Positions 1 to 6,920 of a DNA stretch of 49,675 bases are shown piece by piece. Source of the DNA: Limosilactobacillus kribbianus (GTDB lineage: Bacteria; Bacillota; Bacilli; Lactobacillales; Lactobacillaceae). Under the pieces are notes generated by a model. It worked only from the letters and a program-made list of their open reading frames with translations, had not been told where the DNA came from and made no database searches. The first letter of the stretch is position 1, and every line of letters begins with the position of its first letter. The stretch is taken from the NCBI RefSeq assembly GCF_026413145.1, contig NZ_JAOVYZ010000009.1:1-49675 (forward strand). The letters are read 5' to 3'. The position numbers were made by a program, and so were the translations under genes.

Positions 1-34
1 CTATTTAATTTTAAAAAGCAACGCTGTTTAAAGC

Positions 35-86
35 AAAGAGTGAGCCTTCATTCACACAAATTGTGTAAATAAAGGCTCACTCTTTT
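35..86. terminator. Long inverted repeat, likely bidirectional terminator
   Basis: Arms at 35-48 and 72-85 pair over 14 bp, with a second short inverted repeat (ACACAA/TTGTGT, 54-66) inside. T-rich sequence follows the plus arm and A-rich sequence precedes it, so it could stop transcription from either side. The genes it would serve to the left lie outside the window. Confidence 0.6.
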
Positions 87-128
87 GGTATCCCAAATGT
101 CAATAGCTTAACTTAATGACATTTGAAA

Positions 129-280
129 GAACTCGCTTGCGAGTTCGTCTTCCCACCCCCGCGAGGCTGGCTAGGCGTCCTGGGCGTTGATTTATCAACG
201 TTCAGGATCCAGCCAGCTACCGCGCTGCAGCATTTATAAGCTATATAACAGCAAAGAGGCTAGGTTAATTCCCAGCCTCT
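129..280 (-). repeat. 152-nt structured intergenic repeat, copy A
   Basis: This is homologous over its whole length to 6531-6682. It contains a near-perfect palindrome (GAACTCGC, TT loop, GCGAGTTC; 129-146), a conserved C-rich linker, a large hairpin (GCTGGCT 166-172 with AGCCAGC 211-217, inner stem 179-191 with 194-206) and a terminator-type hairpin (255-280). The first 104 nt match copy B at 98 of 104 positions by my count. It lies 12 nt after the adhE stop. It encodes nothing I can see. Confidence 0.85.
255..280 (-). terminator. adhE terminator (inside repeat copy A)
   Basis: A 10-bp stem with one G-U pair and a TTAATT-type loop, 12 nt beyond the adhE stop; in the minus direction the stem is followed by TTTGCTGTT. 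The same hairpin, with four base changes, ends nrdH at 6657-6682. Confidence 0.7.
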
Positions 281-292
281 TAGAAAATTCAA

Positions 293-2923
293 TTATTTAG
301 CGTCTTCAACACCGGTACCATCGTAGCAGCGTTCCAGGAGTTCCTTCAGCTGACTAACGAGTGGTTCAACCGGGTTGGTCGTCGTACATTGGTCCTCGTA
401 GGCGAGAACGGCCAGGTCGTCGACGACCTTGTTGAACTTCTCCCGGCTAACCCCGTTGTCCTTCAGGCTTAACTTAACACCGCACTGGTGAGCAACCTCA
501 ATGAACTTTTGGGCGTAGGCTTCTGCCAGTTCTTCATCGGAGTTGCCTTGCAGGCCAATAAACCGTGCCAGGTCGGCGTAGTCCTTGGTAGCGTGGAAAG
601 TTTCATAGTGTGGCCAAAGGGCGAGCTTTTGTGGCCGCTTGGCATTGAAGCGGATTACCTGTGGCATAGCGATCGCGATCAGCAGACCGTGCGGCAGACC
701 GAAGGCACCACCCATCTTGTGGGCCAGGGAGTGGGTGATTCCAAGGAAGGCCTGACCGAACGCCATCCCGGCCATCGTGGAGAAGTCGTGCATCTTCCGG
801 CGGGCCAGCTTGTCACCGTCAACTGACTTCGGCAGGTATTCCATCGCGCCCTTAACGGTTTGCAGTGACCAACCACGGGTGTAGTCGGTTGCCATGACGG
901 AAACGTAGGATTCAGTGGCGTGGCAGATGACGTCTAAACCCGTGTAGGCCGTGGTCTTGGGTGGAACGGTTTCCACGAACTGGGAGTCAACGATGGCGAT
1001 GTTTGGCGTCAGTGCGTAGTCGGCCAGTGGGTACTTCACGTGGGTCTTGGAGTCGGTGATGACCGCGAACGGGGTCACTTCGGAACCAGTCCCGGAAGTA
1101 GTTGGAATCCCGATCAGCTGGGACTTCACTGGCTTCTTGATCTGGTAAGCACGCTTCCGGATATCAAGGTACTTCTGCATTACACCGTACCAGGAAGTTT
1201 CTGGGTGCTCATAGAACATCCACATTGCCTTGGCGGCGTCCATTGGTGAACCACCACCGAGGGCGATGATGGTGTCCGGCTTGAAGTCGTTCATCATTGC
1301 GACACCCTTTTCAACGGTGTTCGTTGATGGGTCTTCTTCAACGTCATCGAAGACCAGGTAGGCCGTCCGGTTTTGACGGAGCCGCAGTTGGTCGATCACC
1401 CGTTGAACGTAACCACGCTTGCTCATCCCCGGGCCGGTAACGATGAAGGCCCGTTCAATGTTTGGGATATCCCGCAATTCTTTTAGCGAGTTCCGTTGAA
1501 AGTATACTTTTGGGGGAATCTTGACCCACTGACGATTTTCCCGCCGTTTCGCGATCACCTTGATGTTTAAGAGATCCCAGTCGGTCACGTTGTGAGAAAC
1601 AGAGTTACCACCGTAGGAACCGGTTCCCAGGGTCAGGGATGGGGTCATGTTGTTGTAGATGTTACCAATCCCACCGATGCCGGATGGGGAGTTGACGATG
1701 ATCCGGGAAGCACGCATTTCCAGACCGTACTTGGTGATCAGGTCGTCGTCTAAGGTGTGGATAGCGGCCGTGTGACCTTCACCACCGTAGTGCAGGAGTG
1801 CCCGGCAGATGTCAAAGGCGTTCTCACGGGAGCTTGCCCGGTACATGGTCAGCACTGGGGACAGCTTTTCAGCGGAAAGTGGGTACTTGTCACCAACCCC
1901 GTCGTATTCGGCGATCAGGACCTTGGTGTTGGCTGGAACGTTCTTCAGACCACACATTTCGGCAATGGCATTGGCGGAACGGCCGGCGATTGGTCCGCGA
2001 ACCTGATGGCGTTCAGGATCGATGAAGCCGTCGGTAAAGGTCTTGATTTCATTTGGCTTGATGAAGTAGCAGTTCCACTTCTTGAATTCTTCCTTGACTT
2101 GGTCGTAGATTTCGTCATCAACAACGACGGAGTTTTCGGAAGCACAGATCATTCCGTTATCGAAGGTCTTGGATAAAACAATGTCGTAGATGGAACGAGC
2201 AATGTTAGCGGACTTTTCGATGTAGGCCGGGCCGTTACCAGGACCAACCCCTAATGCCGGGTTACCAGAACTGTAGGCGGCCTTAACCATGGCTGGACCA
2301 CCAGTTGCCAGGATGGTTGCGGTGTTCGGGTTTTGGATCAGGGCCGTCGTCGCTTCGATGCTGCATTGCGGAATCCATTGAATCATGTTCTTCGGTGCAC
2401 CGGCTTTTTCAGCGGCTTCCTGAAGGATCTTTGCAGTCTTGATAGAGGACTGGAGAGCCTGTGGGTGGAAGGAGAAGATGATTGTGTTCCGCGTCTTAGC
2501 GGAGATGATTGACTTGAAGATCGTCGTGGAGGTTGGGTTGGTAACGGGAACGATTCCGGCGATTACCCCCAGCGGGTCGGCGATGGTGACGGTTTGGTCT
2601 TCGTCGTTGTCTTCAATGATGCCGACGGTCTTGTCGTGGCGAATGTTGTTCCAGATGTATTCACTGGCGTAGATGTTCTTGATAGCCTTGTCTTCGGCGA
2701 TCCCACGACCAGTTTCCTTAGCGGCATCCACGGCCAGGTCCATGTGGTGTTCTTCGGCAGCCAGGGCCATCGCTTGACAGATGTTGTCAACTTGTTCTTG
2801 TGAATAGTAACGCAATTTTTCAAAGGCGGCCAGACTCTTTTGCATCAGGTCGTCAATCATTGTTTGAGCTTGTTGTTGCTTACTTTCTTTTGCTTCAGTA
2901 GTTTGCTTTTTTGCTGTCGCCAT
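293..2923 (-). CDS. adhE: Bifunctional acetaldehyde/alcohol dehydrogenase AdhE
   Basis: Converts acetyl-CoA to acetaldehyde and then ethanol, oxidising two NADH; this is the main electron sink of heterofermentative lactobacilli. The 876-residue protein has the usual fused layout: an N-terminal CoA-acylating aldehyde dehydrogenase (catalytic Cys260 in NGMIC, GVGPGNGP loop near 225-232) and a C-terminal iron-dependent alcohol dehydrogenase (GGGSPMDAAK cofactor loop, then GLDVICHATES and a HSLAHKMGG...GLPHG metal-binding stretch). I chose the ATG at 2923 because AAAGGAG lies 8 nt upstream; an in-frame extension to 2992 has no ribosome site and crosses the promoter. It is monocistronic, with its own promoter and terminator. 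Confidence 0.96.
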   Translation of the reverse strand: MATAKKQTTEAKESKQQQAQTMIDDLMQKSLAAFEKLRYYSQEQVDNICQAMALAAEEHHMDLAVDAAKETGRGIAEDKAIKNIYASEYIWNNIRHDKTVGIIEDNDEDQTVTIADPLGVIAGIVPVTNPTSTTIFKSIISAKTRNTIIFSFHPQALQSSIKTAKILQEAAEKAGAPKNMIQWIPQCSIEATTALIQNPNTATILATGGPAMVKAAYSSGNPALGVGPGNGPAYIEKSANIARSIYDIVLSKTFDNGMICASENSVVVDDEIYDQVKEEFKKWNCYFIKPNEIKTFTDGFIDPERHQVRGPIAGRSANAIAEMCGLKNVPANTKVLIAEYDGVGDKYPLSAEKLSPVLTMYRASSRENAFDICRALLHYGGEGHTAAIHTLDDDLITKYGLEMRASRIIVNSPSGIGGIGNIYNNMTPSLTLGTGSYGGNSVSHNVTDWDLLNIKVIAKRRENRQWVKIPPKVYFQRNSLKELRDIPNIERAFIVTGPGMSKRGYVQRVIDQLRLRQNRTAYLVFDDVEEDPSTNTVEKGVAMMNDFKPDTIIALGGGSPMDAAKAMWMFYEHPETSWYGVMQKYLDIRKRAYQIKKPVKSQLIGIPTTSGTGSEVTPFAVITDSKTHVKYPLADYALTPNIAIVDSQFVETVPPKTTAYTGLDVICHATESYVSVMATDYTRGWSLQTVKGAMEYLPKSVDGDKLARRKMHDFSTMAGMAFGQAFLGITHSLAHKMGGAFGLPHGLLIAIAMPQVIRFNAKRPQKLALWPHYETFHATKDYADLARFIGLQGNSDEELAEAYAQKFIEVAHQCGVKLSLKDNGVSREKFNKVVDDLAVLAYEDQCTTTNPVEPLVSQLKELLERCYDGTGVEDAK

Positions 2924-2975
2924 AACAAAGTGCTCCTTTAAGTCAATATAGTTTGTTACGCTTTGAACATGGTCC

Positions 2976-3004
2976 ATAATAATATAGGCCATTTAGAAAA
3001 GCAA
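2976..3004 (-). promoter_or_regulatory. Putative adhE promoter
   Basis: On the minus strand TTGCTT (2999-3004) and TATTAT (2976-2981) are separated by 17 nt, about 50 nt before the adhE start. TTGCTT also forms the candidate -35 of nrdH. Confidence 0.5.
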
Positions 3005-3039
3005 GGGTCTTGTTATTCATTGAGCAATGGTTGAATTGA

Positions 3040-3053
3040 TGTATTCGCTTACA
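3040..3053. promoter_or_regulatory. Candidate cre (CcpA) site upstream of adhE
   Basis: TGTATTCGCTTACA fits the catabolite-responsive consensus TGWAANCGNTNWCA with one mismatch, and its ends are palindromic (TGTA/TACA). It lies about 36 nt upstream of the proposed -35 of adhE. Function is inferred from the match only. Confidence 0.45.
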
Positions 3054-3168
3054 ACATTATTGGGATAATGCTTGCGCGCACGGGAAAAATATTGGTATAA
3101 ATTTTGGATGCTTGAACTGCATAAAATTCAGTTCATACAGTTATTGAACAATAATTCACATTAAGGCC

Positions 3169-3209
3169 AAAAGAAAACCCGTGCTGCCAATTGAATGGTT
3201 ACACGGGTC
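3169..3209 (-). terminator. nrdE-nrdF terminator
   Basis: In the minus direction CCCGTG (3202-3207) pairs with CACGGG (3178-3183), followed by TTTTCTTTT. It begins just beyond the nrdF stop and separates nrdF from adhE. Confidence 0.65.
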
Positions 3210-3216
3210 TGTTGAA

Positions 3217-4239
3217 TTAATCACGTGAATTCTTGTCCTTACCGGCATTCGGATCCTTGATATTGTAATCATCGTCGCTCATCGCTTCGACGGCCCCAAG
3301 CCGGTAGCCGTTCCCCACCTGACTGAAGAAGTCGTGGTTAGAGGTCGAAGTCGAGATCCCGTTCATGACCACTGGATTGACGTCGGCGGCGGTGTCCGGG
3401 AAGAGTGGGTCCTGACCGAGGTTCATCAGGGCCTTGTTGGCATTGTAACGAATGAAGGTCAAAACGTTGCTGGTCCAACCGATTTGGTCATACAGCAGGT
3501 GGGTGTAGTCTTCCTCATTGCTGTAAAGGTCGTAGAGGAAGTTGTACATCCAGTCCTTCATGTCCTGTTGCTGCTTTTCGGTCCGTTGCCGGAGACCAAC
3601 TTGGAATTTGTAACCGATGTAGGTGCCGTGAACGGATTCGTCCCGCAGGATCAGTTTGATGATCTCGGCGACGTTGTTCAATTTATTATGGCCCAGGTAG
3701 TAGAGCGGGGTATAGAAGCCGGAGTAGAAGAGGAAGGTTTCCAAGAAGACGTTTACCACCTTTTTCTTCAGCGGGTCCTCGTTTGGGTCGCGGTACATGT
3801 TGGCAATGCGGACGGCCTTGTTTTGAAGGTACTCCTCGGAGTCGGACCACTTAAAGATTTCCTCGATTTCGTCAGGAGTGTTCAGGGTTGAGAAAATAGT
3901 GGAGTAACTCTTAGCGTGGACGGATTCCATGAACTGAATGTTGTTTAAGACGGCGGTTTCGTGCTTGGTCTTGACGTCCTGTTTTAAGGCGGTCATTCCA
4001 GCCTCGGATTGAACCGTATCCAGGAGGGTCAGGCCCCCGAAGACGTGACCGACCGTCCAACGATGATCATCATCGAGCTGGCGCCAGTCGTCAAGGTCGT
4101 TAGAGACGGGAATTCGGGTGTCAAGCCAGAACTGTTCGGTCAACTTTTCCCAGGTAGCCTTGTCGATCATGTCCGAGACCTCGTTCCAGTTGATGGCTTC
4201 GTAGCTTTTTAGTGGCTTAAATTCTTGGTCAAACTTCAT
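3217..4239 (-). CDS. nrdF: Class Ib ribonucleoside-diphosphate reductase beta subunit
   Basis: Carries the dimetal-tyrosyl radical cofactor needed by NrdE to make deoxyribonucleotides. The 340-residue protein shows the complete metal site with family spacing: Asp74, Glu105, His108, Glu167, Glu201 and His204, plus Tyr112 in KSYS as the radical tyrosine. The start is supported by AAAGGAG. It lies 67 nt downstream of nrdE in the same orientation. No nrdI (flavodoxin used to assemble the Mn form) is found in the window, so it must be elsewhere. Confidence 0.96.
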   Translation of the reverse strand: MKFDQEFKPLKSYEAINWNEVSDMIDKATWEKLTEQFWLDTRIPVSNDLDDWRQLDDDHRWTVGHVFGGLTLLDTVQSEAGMTALKQDVKTKHETAVLNNIQFMESVHAKSYSTIFSTLNTPDEIEEIFKWSDSEEYLQNKAVRIANMYRDPNEDPLKKKVVNVFLETFLFYSGFYTPLYYLGHNKLNNVAEIIKLILRDESVHGTYIGYKFQVGLRQRTEKQQQDMKDWMYNFLYDLYSNEEDYTHLLYDQIGWTSNVLTFIRYNANKALMNLGQDPLFPDTAADVNPVVMNGISTSTSNHDFFSQVGNGYRLGAVEAMSDDDYNIKDPNAGKDKNSRD

Positions 4240-4306
4240 TTTGTGCTCCTTTAAATTGTAAACGAACGAATTGCTCTACCTAGTTTAGCAAGTGCGCACC
4301 GGCAAA

Positions 4307-6478
4307 TCAAATCACACAGCTCTCGCATTGGTTGGCGCCGATCTCATCCTGATCGTCAGTGAAGGTCCGGACGTAGTAAATCGACTTGATGCCCTTTTGG
4401 TAGGCATAGTGCCGCAGAATGTTGAGATCCCGGGTGGTCATCTTGTCGGTCCGGCCGTCCTTCCATTCGTAGAGACCGGCCGGGATGGTGGAACGCATGA
4501 AAATCGTCAGTGACATTGACTGATCGACGTGCTGCTGGGCCGCCGCGTAGGTGTCAATGACCCGCCGCATGTCAATATCGTAGGCGGACTTGTAGTACGG
4601 CAGGGTGTCATTGGAAAGGTACGGGGCCGGGTAGTAGATCTTACCGATCATTTTTTCCTGTCGTTCCTCAATCCGGTTGACGATTGGCGTGATGCTAGCC
4701 GTGGAATCGTTAATGTAGGCCGTGGAACCATTCGGGGCAACGGCCATCCGGTAGGCGTTGTAGAGGCCGTCTCTCATGACCTGGTCACGAAGCTTCTTCC
4801 AGTCTGCGATCCCGGGAATAAAGATCCCGTCAAAAAGCTCCTTGACGACGTCGGATTGGGGACCCCAGTCACGTTCAACGTACTTGGTGAAGTACGAACC
4901 ATCGGCATAGGCGCTCTTGTCAAAGTCGTAGAAGGTCGCCTGACGTTCACGGGCAAGCTCGTTGGAAGCCACCAGTGACCAGTAGTTGAGAAGCATGAAG
5001 TAGACGCCGGTGAATTCAATGGCGACTGGACTACCATATTGAATATGGTGCTTAGCCAGGTAGCCGTGCAGACCCATGGCACCTAGTCCGATCGAGTGGT
5101 AGAGCGTGTTGCCGTGTTCAATCGTTGGCACAACCTCAATATGTTCGGCGTCACTGATCCGGGTGAGGCCGCGGACCATCGCCCGGATGCTCTTACCGAA
5201 GTCGGGACTCTCCATCATATTGGCAATGTTGGTTGAACCCAGGTTACAGGAGACATCGGAGCCTAGCGTGGTGTAGGTTTGGTCATCGTTGACCCGGGAA
5301 AGGATCTGCACCTGGGCAATTTCGGAGCAGAGATTGCTGCTGACGACCTTGCCATCGATCGGGTTGGCCCGGTTGACCATATCAATGTTGATAATGTAAG
5401 GATAGCCGGACTCTTGCTGGAGCTTACTGATCTCATCTTCGAGGTCGCGGGCATTGACCTTCTTTTTATGGATCTCATCGTTGGCAACCATTTTGTCATA
5501 CTCCGCCGTGATGTCGACGTAGGAAAATGGCTTACCGTAGACCCGTTCAACGTCGTAAGGACTGAAGAGATACATGTCCTCATTTTTCTCAACTAATTCA
5601 TAGAACTTGTCGGGAACCGTGATCCCCAGTGAGAGGGTCTTCAGCCGGACCTTTTCGTCAGCATTTTCCTTCTTGGCCCCTAAGAATTCAATGATGTCGG
5701 GGTGGAAAACACTCAGATAGACCACGCCGGCACCCTGCCGCTGGCCCAATTGGTTGGAGTAAGAGAAGCTGTCTTCTAAGAGCTTCATCACCGGGACGAC
5801 CCCGCTGGCCGCACCCTTGATCTTCTTGATGGGGGCACCAGATTCCCGCAAGTTGGACAGGTTAATTCCGACCCCACCGCCGATCTTGGAGAGCTGCAGG
5901 GCGGAGTTGATCGTTCGTCCGATCGTGTTCATGTCGTCAGTGGTCTGAATGACGAAGCAGGAGACGAATTCACCGCGCCGCTTCCGGCCGACGTTTAAGA
6001 AGGTCGGAGTAGCCGGCTGGTAGCGCTGGTGGACGATCTCATCGGCCAAATCCATGGCCAGCTCTTCGTTGCCGTTAGCCAGGTAAAGGGCATTCATTGC
6101 GACCCGATCAATGTAGTTTTCCAAGTAGTATTCCTTGTCATTGGTGCGCAGGGCATACTGAGCGTAGAATTTGTAGGCTGCCATGAAGGAATGAAAGTGG
6201 AAATCCTGGTCCCGGAGATAGGCGTAGAGCTTTTCGATAAAGACCGGGCTGTATTGGTCCACGAAGCCGCGTTCGATGTAGTCATTGTCTTCTAGCCAGG
6301 CGAAACGTTCTTTTAATGAGGAAAAACGTTTCGTGTTGGGTTCGACGTTCTCCTTGAGAAAATCGGCCAGGGCTTCCTGGTCCTTTTCAAGCTGAATCTG
6401 GCCGTTGCGGGGGATGTTGACCTCGTTGTTGAGGTCAAAGTACTTTACCTTTGTCAGATCAATATCGGATAATGCCAT
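4307..6478 (-). CDS. nrdE: Class Ib ribonucleoside-diphosphate reductase alpha subunit
   Basis: Catalytic subunit that reduces ribonucleoside diphosphates, re-reduced by NrdH. The 723-residue protein has an N-terminal helical domain, the NLCSEI active-site motif, a barrel with SIGLGAMGLHG, and a C-terminal CESC redox pair six residues from the end. I chose ATG at 6478 (AAGTGAG upstream) over a longer in-frame TTG start at 6511 that has no ribosome site. Unlike the usual compact nrdH-E-F operon, it is separated from nrdH by a terminator-like hairpin and repeat copy B, and I see no strong promoter of its own. Confidence 0.95.
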   Translation of the reverse strand: MALSDIDLTKVKYFDLNNEVNIPRNGQIQLEKDQEALADFLKENVEPNTKRFSSLKERFAWLEDNDYIERGFVDQYSPVFIEKLYAYLRDQDFHFHSFMAAYKFYAQYALRTNDKEYYLENYIDRVAMNALYLANGNEELAMDLADEIVHQRYQPATPTFLNVGRKRRGEFVSCFVIQTTDDMNTIGRTINSALQLSKIGGGVGINLSNLRESGAPIKKIKGAASGVVPVMKLLEDSFSYSNQLGQRQGAGVVYLSVFHPDIIEFLGAKKENADEKVRLKTLSLGITVPDKFYELVEKNEDMYLFSPYDVERVYGKPFSYVDITAEYDKMVANDEIHKKKVNARDLEDEISKLQQESGYPYIINIDMVNRANPIDGKVVSSNLCSEIAQVQILSRVNDDQTYTTLGSDVSCNLGSTNIANMMESPDFGKSIRAMVRGLTRISDAEHIEVVPTIEHGNTLYHSIGLGAMGLHGYLAKHHIQYGSPVAIEFTGVYFMLLNYWSLVASNELARERQATFYDFDKSAYADGSYFTKYVERDWGPQSDVVKELFDGIFIPGIADWKKLRDQVMRDGLYNAYRMAVAPNGSTAYINDSTASITPIVNRIEERQEKMIGKIYYPAPYLSNDTLPYYKSAYDIDMRRVIDTYAAAQQHVDQSMSLTIFMRSTIPAGLYEWKDGRTDKMTTRDLNILRHYAYQKGIKSIYYVRTFTDDQDEIGANQCESCVI

Positions 6479-6520
6479 CTTGCTTAACTCACTTTCTTTG
6501 ATTTTGGGCAATAAAGAAGG

Positions 6521-6682
6521 GAGTGGGACAGAACTCGCAAGCGAGTTCGTTTTCCCACCCCCGCGAGGCTGGCTAGGCGTCCTGGACGTTGATTTATCAA
6601 CGCCCAGGATCCAGCCAGCTACCGCGCTGCAGCAGTTATGATTATAAAAATAGTAAAGAGGCTGAGTTAATTCTCAACCTCT
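6521..6682 (-). repeat. Structured intergenic repeat, copy B
   Basis: The counterpart of 129-280 is 6531-6682 (152 nt, exactly the same length). The first palindrome has loop AA instead of TT, and here the stem extends outward because GTGGGA (6523-6528) can pair with TCCCAC (6553-6558); that left arm is missing from copy A. The large hairpin and the terminator hairpin are both kept. It sits between nrdH and nrdE, which belong to one pathway. Confidence 0.85.
6657..6682 (-). terminator. Terminator-like hairpin after nrdH (inside repeat copy B)
   Basis: In the minus direction AGAGGTTGAG pairs with CTCAGCCTCT, followed by TTTACTATTTTTA; it starts 16 nt after the nrdH stop. If efficient, it would reduce transcription into nrdE. 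Confidence 0.6.
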
Positions 6683-6698
6683 AGATAAGTAACGTCTC

Positions 6699-6920
6699 TT
6701 AGGCTAATTGCTGAAGACGGTCTGGACGGAAGCCAGAGAATGCGCTGCCGTTGGGCAACTTAACGACCGGAGTAGCCATGAACCCCTCGGCCTTCAGTTG
6801 GGAAACGTACTCTGGCTGTTCGTCAATGTTGTGTTCAATGAAATCAATCTGGTGCTGCTTGAGGAACTTCTTCGTCATCTTGCATTGAATGCAGTCGTTC
6901 TTGGAAAAAACAGTTACCAT
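6699..6920 (-). CDS. nrdH: Glutaredoxin-like NrdH-redoxin
   Basis: Small electron donor that re-reduces the NrdE disulfide, itself reduced by thioredoxin reductase. The 73-residue protein has the CxxC pair at Cys10 and Cys13 (CIQC), the TPVVKLPNG cis-proline segment and the SGFRPD C-terminal motif typical of NrdH. The start is supported by AAGGAG upstream. It is the first gene of the nrd locus in transcription order. Confidence 0.94.
   Translation of the reverse strand: MVTVFSKNDCIQCKMTKKFLKQHQIDFIEHNIDEQPEYVSQLKAEGFMATPVVKLPNGSAFSGFRPDRLQQLA

Follow-up and report, generated by a model that had tools for sequence, protein, structure and literature searches.

EFAR repeats of Enterococcus faecalis, said to go back to Venditti et al. 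(FEMS Microbiol Lett 2007), are reportedly modular, mostly about 170 bp long and composed of two stem-loops. They are said to integrate into unrelated stem-loops, with most of the target hairpin lost and remnants of its stem left at the ends. Here we describe an element that may work like EFAR, found in a 49,675-nt stretch of Limosilactobacillus kribbianus DNA (assembly GCF_026413145.1, contig NZ_JAOVYZ010000009.1), which we call the window and which is the whole of contig C95 of genome G000 (2.11 Mb, 105 contigs). It occurs there as copy A next to adhE and copy B between nrdH and nrdE, and we read it, with a probability of roughly 0.87, as a non-autonomous mobile element that spreads by replacing the hairpins of terminators. 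The kinship with EFAR would lie in the reported insertion mode; the hosts differ, and the two are likened by features, not by sequence.

Other families can be compared through those parts of the cited reports that describe them. The Efa-1 family (163 bp, 65 copies, intergenic, two adjacent stem-loops; PMC2267715) has a similar size and fold in a different host, a comparison made by description only. STAR of Staphylococcus aureus has a start signature, GTGGGACAGAAATGAT, that begins with GTGGGACAGAA, while STAR proper consists of a 14-bp direct repeat with spacers (PMC3532100). GTGGGACAGAA is also the left arm of the present family, and the staphylococcal genus has matches to our model R1 described below; this common 11-nt motif hints at kinship but does not prove it, and STAR proper differs. 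BOX, RUP and SPRITE of Streptococcus pneumoniae are given as small, modular or terminator-like, enriched 3′ of genes and judged parasitic (PMC3049150). BOX is organized as boxA-boxB(n)-boxC (PMC3049150), RUP is about 107 bp long with IS630-type ends (PMC3049150, PMC2229807), and a review is available (PMC10969869). For one of these repeats, PMC3049150 notes that an empty site suited to easy comparison could not be found, and it gives the repeats as absent from other streptococci, with the exception of BOX-like repeats in S. suis. Streptococci carry the present family in abundance, and these descriptions set it apart from all three. Finally, YPAL/RU-2 of Yersinia (about 168 bp) uses targets that span or adjoin dyad symmetry and makes target duplications of 3–26 bp (PMC2229807). 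It is similar in size and target; however, it duplicates the target, whereas the present element loses the target hairpin. We found no literature on the element family in Limosilactobacillus or on the streptococcal repeat, in a search whose coverage left most subscription journals outside.

A repeat family with a conserved fold

The two 152-nt copies at 129–280 and 6531–6682 agree at 132 of 152 positions in an ungapped alignment, and a repeat finder extends the pair to 125–280 and 6527–6682 (87% identity, 135 of 156 positions). When copy B was searched against its own genome with blastn, 38 matches were obtained, some of which are inner palindromic matches on the opposite strand or halves of longer forms that were split; the 12 best besides B itself show 81–91% identity over 116–172 nt. 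Because of these many further copies, the similarity of A and B cannot be a matter of chance. We then tried 27 loci, 24 of which gave a core, and built the model R1 from 23 cores, leaving out L036, L038 and L042 (no core obtained) as well as L031.

The core consists of two hairpins with strong compensatory change. RNAalifold predicted 37 pairs for the 23 cores, and 26 of these carry compensatory changes. In this alignment 93.8% of the cells pair, compared to 80.2% after shuffling and 33–45% when the partners were slid by 1–3 columns, and the covariation score of 0.395 was reached in none of 500 shuffles. A further 27 matches from 24 loci, 26 of them outside R1 (L207 is the same place as L052, which is in R1), vary on both sides in 31 of the 37 pairs and score 0.525 in an alignment that was fitted to R1 and hence is biased towards it; sliding the partners there lowers the pairing to 34–40%. 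In helix 3, which has 25 pairs, both sides have changed at 19 pairs in the 23 cores (alignment A1) and at 23 in the 27 matches (alignment A2).

At E ≤ 0.01, R1 finds 22 copies in G000 (among the best 150 of 340 candidates) and 27 in its one-contig relative G025 (best 150 of 391). The streptococci G035 and G067, also one-contig genomes, carry 85 and 91 copies among the best 150 candidates of each. Among 295 genomes drawn from the order, R1 matches appeared in 48 genomes from 7 of 72 genera: 40 from genus g4, five from four genera of family f5, two from the genus of the window and one from a different genus of that family. Among 398 genomes drawn from the class, 50 had matches, from 3 of 145 genera, namely 24 of g4, 25 of g80 (family f17) and one of the window's own genus; at least two g4 genomes, G090 and G152, gave no R1 match there. 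Families with matches in the two draws were f1, f4, f5 and f17 only. Since no more than 13 or 9 places were scored per genome in the draws, copy numbers are taken from the separate R1 counts. The two phage records that match the g4 element are streptococcal, and we therefore read g4 as Streptococcus; g80 is read as Staphylococcus, since all 42 plasmid and all 17 phage matches of its element are staphylococcal.

Some plasmid and phage records match the family as well. One Limosilactobacillus reuteri plasmid matches the window element, and the staphylococcal form is matched in part by the 42 plasmid records just mentioned; the plasmid records held no match to the streptococcal forms. Among the phage records none matched the window element, two matched the streptococcal element, and 17 matched the staphylococcal form in part, with 14 of the 15 listed rows unannotated. 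Compared by NrdE with named records, G000 falls near Limosilactobacillus, whose named members match at 80–88%. Around nrdE, 80 named loci included one clear copy, in Limosilactobacillus coleohominis 101-4-CHN (L080, 109 bits), and three weak ones. Rfam 15 at the gathering score gave no family at the window elements or at 21 other loci, and laxer Rfam scans gave sub-threshold matches only. A pattern scan of the genome contigs with the stem-1 sequence gave no match. The initial annotation had proposed searching this and related genomes with a covariance model; that search returned many copies with covariation, and the contrary outcomes it had named, only two copies or no compensatory change, did not occur. 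Its wording "of the species" proved too narrow, as the element extends over the genus and, beyond it, to streptococci and staphylococci.

On the plus strand, copy B is ordered as AATAAAGAAG (from the target), stem-loop 1, CCC, core hairpin, spacer and right hairpin. In many copies an A-run flanks the left end and a T-run the right end, so that reading outward on either side leads through a hairpin and then a T-run; one of the two runs is missing in some copies. Imperfect end repeats, GRGNSTGGGACA, are visible at the element ends. The core comes in short, long and mixed forms: copies other than B can have a longer core that contains additional nested arms, and in L012 and L022 one arm is long and the other short. 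At a site common to both genomes, the core is long in G000 (L020) and short in G025 (L145), between nearly identical flanks and end modules. Because these two differ mainly in the core, with both hairpin arms changed together, we conclude that core modules are exchanged. This modular assembly from several sequence types is an EFAR-like feature. In streptococci, a variant with a different and longer inner module was seen at L294 and L298 (sites L256 and L263). Mechanically called reading frames end within 30 nt of the element at 27 of 37 loci; by their flanking frames the 37 divide into 14 convergent, 14 co-directional, 3 divergent (L001 wrongly called) and 6 undetermined cases.

Terminator hairpins at element-free sites

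To compare occupied with element-free sites, we took one flank at a time, from 10 sites of G025 and 13 of G000, and searched for it in the respective other genome; the L142 site was not found in G000 by this flank search. Of the 22 site pairs obtained, one is occupied in both genomes (L022/L175), and in the other 21 a hairpin stands at the site in all 21. Among the copies compared, six site pairs are common to G000 and G025 and 21 are unshared. Examples read AATAAAGAAG|CCAGGAAGAAAAATCTACCTGG|CTAGATAAG for copy B versus L202, AAAAAG|CTTCCCAACACAGGAAGC|TTTTTATTTTT for L150 versus L165, and AAAAGAAG|CCGGTCAAACCTGGGATGGCTTGACCGG|CTTCTTT for L019 versus L196. Sites in streptococcal genomes were traced as well. 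In a first batch of nine sites, a hairpin was present in one or more element-free relatives for eight, and at some of these sites more distant element-free relatives lacked a clear hairpin. In a second batch, made up of nine sites occupied by the streptococcal type with the least variation, four had an element-free ortholog, all four with hairpins, and for the other five no element-free ortholog was found among the three genomes searched. Altogether, a relative with a short hairpin exactly at the site was found for 33 of the 34 sites having an element-free ortholog, so that a stem-loop target with most of its hairpin lost, the feature reported for EFAR, is seen at these 33.

A hairpin centred on the junction scores at least 8 at 31 of the 33 sites (7 and 4 at the other two), compared to 6.7% of 4526 control positions drawn from the same loci, and at least 10 at 23 of the 33 sites versus 1.6% of the controls. 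This centred test replaced an automatic scan for the best local hairpin, which often chose other folds in the region. At least five T lie in the right 10 nt at 27 of the 33 sites, at least five A in the left 10 nt at 30, and one or both of these at all 33. Because they are flanked by T-rich runs on the right and A-rich runs on the left, the hairpins at the element-free sites are taken as intrinsic terminators.

At the copy B site the direction of change can be read from a wider comparison. All 32 nrdH–nrdE spacers from Lactobacillaceae records (two of them Paucilactobacillus) lack the element, with blastn and R1 in agreement, and therefore the element was gained there rather than lost. By eye, the nrdH–nrdE spacer of many relatives contains a short hairpin together with a T-rich stretch (window 4307–6920; L059–L089, L109), and an attenuator within the nrdHEF operon may thus be old. 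A free stem scan over the 130 nt before nrdE scored at least 7 at 32 of 32 named loci, often off the hairpin read by eye; it was unspecific and was not used.

The junctions show hairpin loss. In a clean case (L311, L346), the filled site reads AGAAAG|AGAGTGGGACAG...CCCAGC|CGCTTTTAACG and the unfilled site AGAAAG|26-nt hairpin|CGCTTTTAACG. Pairs such as L311/L346, L317/L335, L150/L165 and B/L202, read by eye, show remnants of the target stem at the element ends, as EFAR is said to leave them. The target site duplication of a classical miniature inverted-repeat transposable element was not seen at the eye-read junctions, which show hairpin loss and no duplication.

Single terminators are occupied differently in close species. 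The L207 site holds one element type in G050, another in G035 and G279, and a plain hairpin in G067. At the L327 site, the element has one orientation in G067 and G279 and the opposite one in G035, where the type is the same (L348); at the L318 site, G035 and G067 share one type, and G279 holds another type, reversed (L341). Opposite orientations at the same terminator across species are hence observed for L348 versus L337/L344 and for L341 versus L330/L349. Such reversed elements could be renewed insertions or inversions between the end repeats.

Among 20 streptococcal copies from two species, picked for equal bit score and hence not an average, 18 match a 128-nt core over its full length free of mismatches, one is mismatch-free over 113 nt and one has a single mismatch. 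In the matches listed, the same bit score occurs at at least 28 places in G067 and at least 22 in G035. An identical 128-nt core was observed at many dispersed places within and between species (L302, L304, L310–L329; G035, G067, G279). Recent spread or continual conversion would explain this near-identity.

Proposed movement by hairpin replacement and its rivals

We propose that an element of about 110–240 nt, consisting of a left hairpin, a core hairpin of several lengths and a right terminator hairpin, spreads by taking the place of the hairpin of an existing intrinsic terminator, in either orientation. The A-rich left and T-rich right sides of the target are retained, and the hairpin that lay between them is lost. 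Directly observed are the repeat family, its conserved fold, the terminators at element-free sites, the junctions and the two orientations at one site. The outward hairpin plus T-run in both directions would probably restore termination for the genes on both sides, and insertion would thus cost the host little. The recognised feature may be the DNA hairpin itself, and movement may proceed through its breakage and the copying-in of the element by a host or other enzyme, rather than by a Y1 transposase or a reverse transcriptase. The candidates left are an enzyme acting in trans and a repair of the cut hairpin guided by the A- and T-runs, neither of which is strongly favoured. Many copies, filled and unfilled orthologous sites and strong covariation bear out both the "non-autonomous mobile element" of the initial annotation and its idea of a unit that brings its own terminator plus stable hairpins.

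Several points weigh against this reading. A covariation measure that counts further pair types was matched by 7 of 500 shuffles. One of the 34 sites, L255, has element-free relatives with no recognisable terminator, and at several sites a clear hairpin is present in some relatives only (L253 but not L296; L262 but not L278). The hairpin strings were chosen by eye at the junction, which biases the scores towards the result. The fold energy of 60-nt segments separates less well: only 12 of the 33 sites lie at or below the 5% level, and three are worse than the control median, with 30 at least equal to it. Automatic junction alignment failed in L009, L010, L018 and L140, and in several pairs it overran through chance matches, after which the junctions were read by eye. 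At least one copy, L016, apparently interrupts a reading frame and has no A- and T-runs; it fits neither a trans-acting enzyme nor run-guided repair well. Finally, the searches turned up no enzyme that would move the element, nor was a longer version that carries genes observed, though no systematic search for one was made.

The strongest rival, to which we give a real chance that is nevertheless clearly below even, does without dedicated transposition. A host nuclease would cut the hairpin, and a second terminator would then convert the cut one by way of short A- and T-runs that the two share. SbcCD is such a hairpin nuclease. The retained A- and T-sides, the lost target hairpin, the absence of a target duplication at the junctions and of an enzyme in our searches all fit this idea, as does the exchange of a whole core at one shared site (L020 versus L145). 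However, the shared runs are only about 5–8 nt long by eye, which is very short homology for ordinary recombination. One may also speculate, slightly more tentatively still, about a single ancient, Bacilli-wide superfamily of terminator-homing elements that would comprise the Limosilactobacillus unit, the streptococcal repeats, the left part of STAR and EFAR. These would be transposase-free, host nucleases cutting the extruded DNA hairpin and the element being copied in via the A- and T-runs.

Less likely, and in our view improbable, is a structured RNA useful to the host, that is, a 3′ module serving as terminator together with an mRNA stabiliser or a source of small RNA, kept by host selection and spread only secondarily. 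The deep covariation over 37 pairs and the position at the 3′ ends of genes would agree with it. However, the occupied sites differ between close species, with six G000/G025 pairs common and 21 not, and at those 21 sites as well as at 12 streptococcal ones a plain hairpin suffices in a relative.

Movement by a Y1 (RAYT, HUH-type) transposase appears very unlikely. Repetitive extragenic palindromes (REPs), often tied to such REP-associated tyrosine transposases, are given as 20–40 bp long (PMC3733652). Like them, the present element is a dispersed hairpin in intergenic space, but its unit of about 160 nt differs from a REP in size and architecture, and the earlier label "REP-like" is dropped. 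A Y1_Tnp (PF01797) search gave no match in G000 and one in G025, with the control search positive in 5 of 14 named genomes; yet G000 holds sites that are absent from G025. A diverged enzyme can escape such a profile search, and the enzyme may since have been lost. Group IIC introns home to terminators, and RNA-mediated movement by a reverse transcriptase, in the same manner, would share this target; we regard it as even less probable than a Y1 enzyme. The carrier G095 has 22 matches to RVT_1 (PF00078), whereas the many-copy carriers G000, G025, G035, G050 and G067, five of the six carriers, have none. In G095, which belongs to the window's genus, 16 of the 22 matches lie in a 473-aa open frame, and the set looks like a burst of group II introns. 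Chance similarity or an assembly artefact, which the place of copy A at a contig end might suggest, is refuted by the copies in the one-contig genomes G025, G035 and G067.

If terminator hairpins are indeed replaced in this way, gene-end terminators, which are usually regarded as stable, differ at numerous sites between close species because a single structured element has displaced them and supplied a substitute. This offers a natural experiment on terminator evolution, on the 3′ ends in three large human-associated bacterial groups and on how a hairpin is found with no recognisable enzyme. Rfam 15 gave no match for these repeats, and the covariation model can serve as it stands for their annotation.

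The two window copies and an adjoining repeat

The genes around the two copies are adhE, nrdF, nrdE and nrdH (NCBIfam). Copy B (6520–6680, plus strand; R1 123.5 bits at 6520–6627) lies between nrdH (6699–6920) and nrdE (4307–6478), both on the minus strand. To its left, AATAAAGAAG at 6510–6519 is what the former target terminator has kept on that side; L202, the element-free site in G025, has the identical sequence, with CCAGG...CCTGG after it. To its right, CTAGATAAG at 6681–6689 is the kept right side, likewise identical in L202; its first base can be assigned to the element or to the target. Stem-loop 1 (6520–6558) comprises helices 1 and 2 of the covariation analysis and, with TCCCTTCTTT following it on the minus strand, may act as a terminator in that direction. 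The core hairpin (6562–6626) is closed by CGC-R-AG ... TAC-Y-GCG and forms helix 3 with its 25 pairs. The right-end terminator hairpin (6658–6681) reads GAGGCTGAG-TTAATT-CTCAACCTC, and compensated variants of it are present in other copies. All these parts are given on the plus strand.

Copy A (125–280, plus strand; R1 105.8 bits at 118–225) lies 3′ of adhE (293–2992, minus strand) and has lost its left outer stem. Its right-end terminator hairpin (256–279, plus strand), GAGGCTAGG-TTAATT-CCCAGCCTC, was read directly and folds as a hairpin. In G025 the orthologous adhE site, L181, is free of the element and has a plain hairpin. The last 26 nt, first taken for the terminator of the preceding gene, thus belong to the element itself, since L202 and L181 hold other hairpins. 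On re-reading, the palindrome loops differ as stated before, with TT in copy A and AA in copy B, and the described stem changes in the large hairpin agree. The per-part identities hold for the first 104 nt (98 matches) and the last 26 nt (22 matches), and the middle 22 nt have 12 matches rather than about 13. It is also correct that the outer GTGGGA of stem 1 is present in copy B and missing from copy A; its absence from copy A comes from another repeat that adjoins at 124/125.

The contig begins inside this other repeat, whose end covers window positions 1–124 and by which the left end of copy A was cut off. It is found at 12 places in G000, one of them partial, and eight are flush with a contig end. 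No transposase was seen in it, nor at a weak match in G026; it is probably an insertion sequence. In addition to copy A, it adjoins the element copies L011 and L027 and the half copy L244 on contig C16. The repeat was observed against four element copies (window; L006, L011, L027, L244 with L025), and in three of these four it lies inside the right terminator hairpin. On C16 the repeat end adjoins a right element part, the flank of which matches site L184 of G025. The left element part at the L184-matching site is found in L025, followed by a terminal sequence that shares only its outermost bases with the repeat. As this ending fits the other end of the same insertion, L025 is probably a further copy broken by the repeat, in addition to copies A, L011 and L027.

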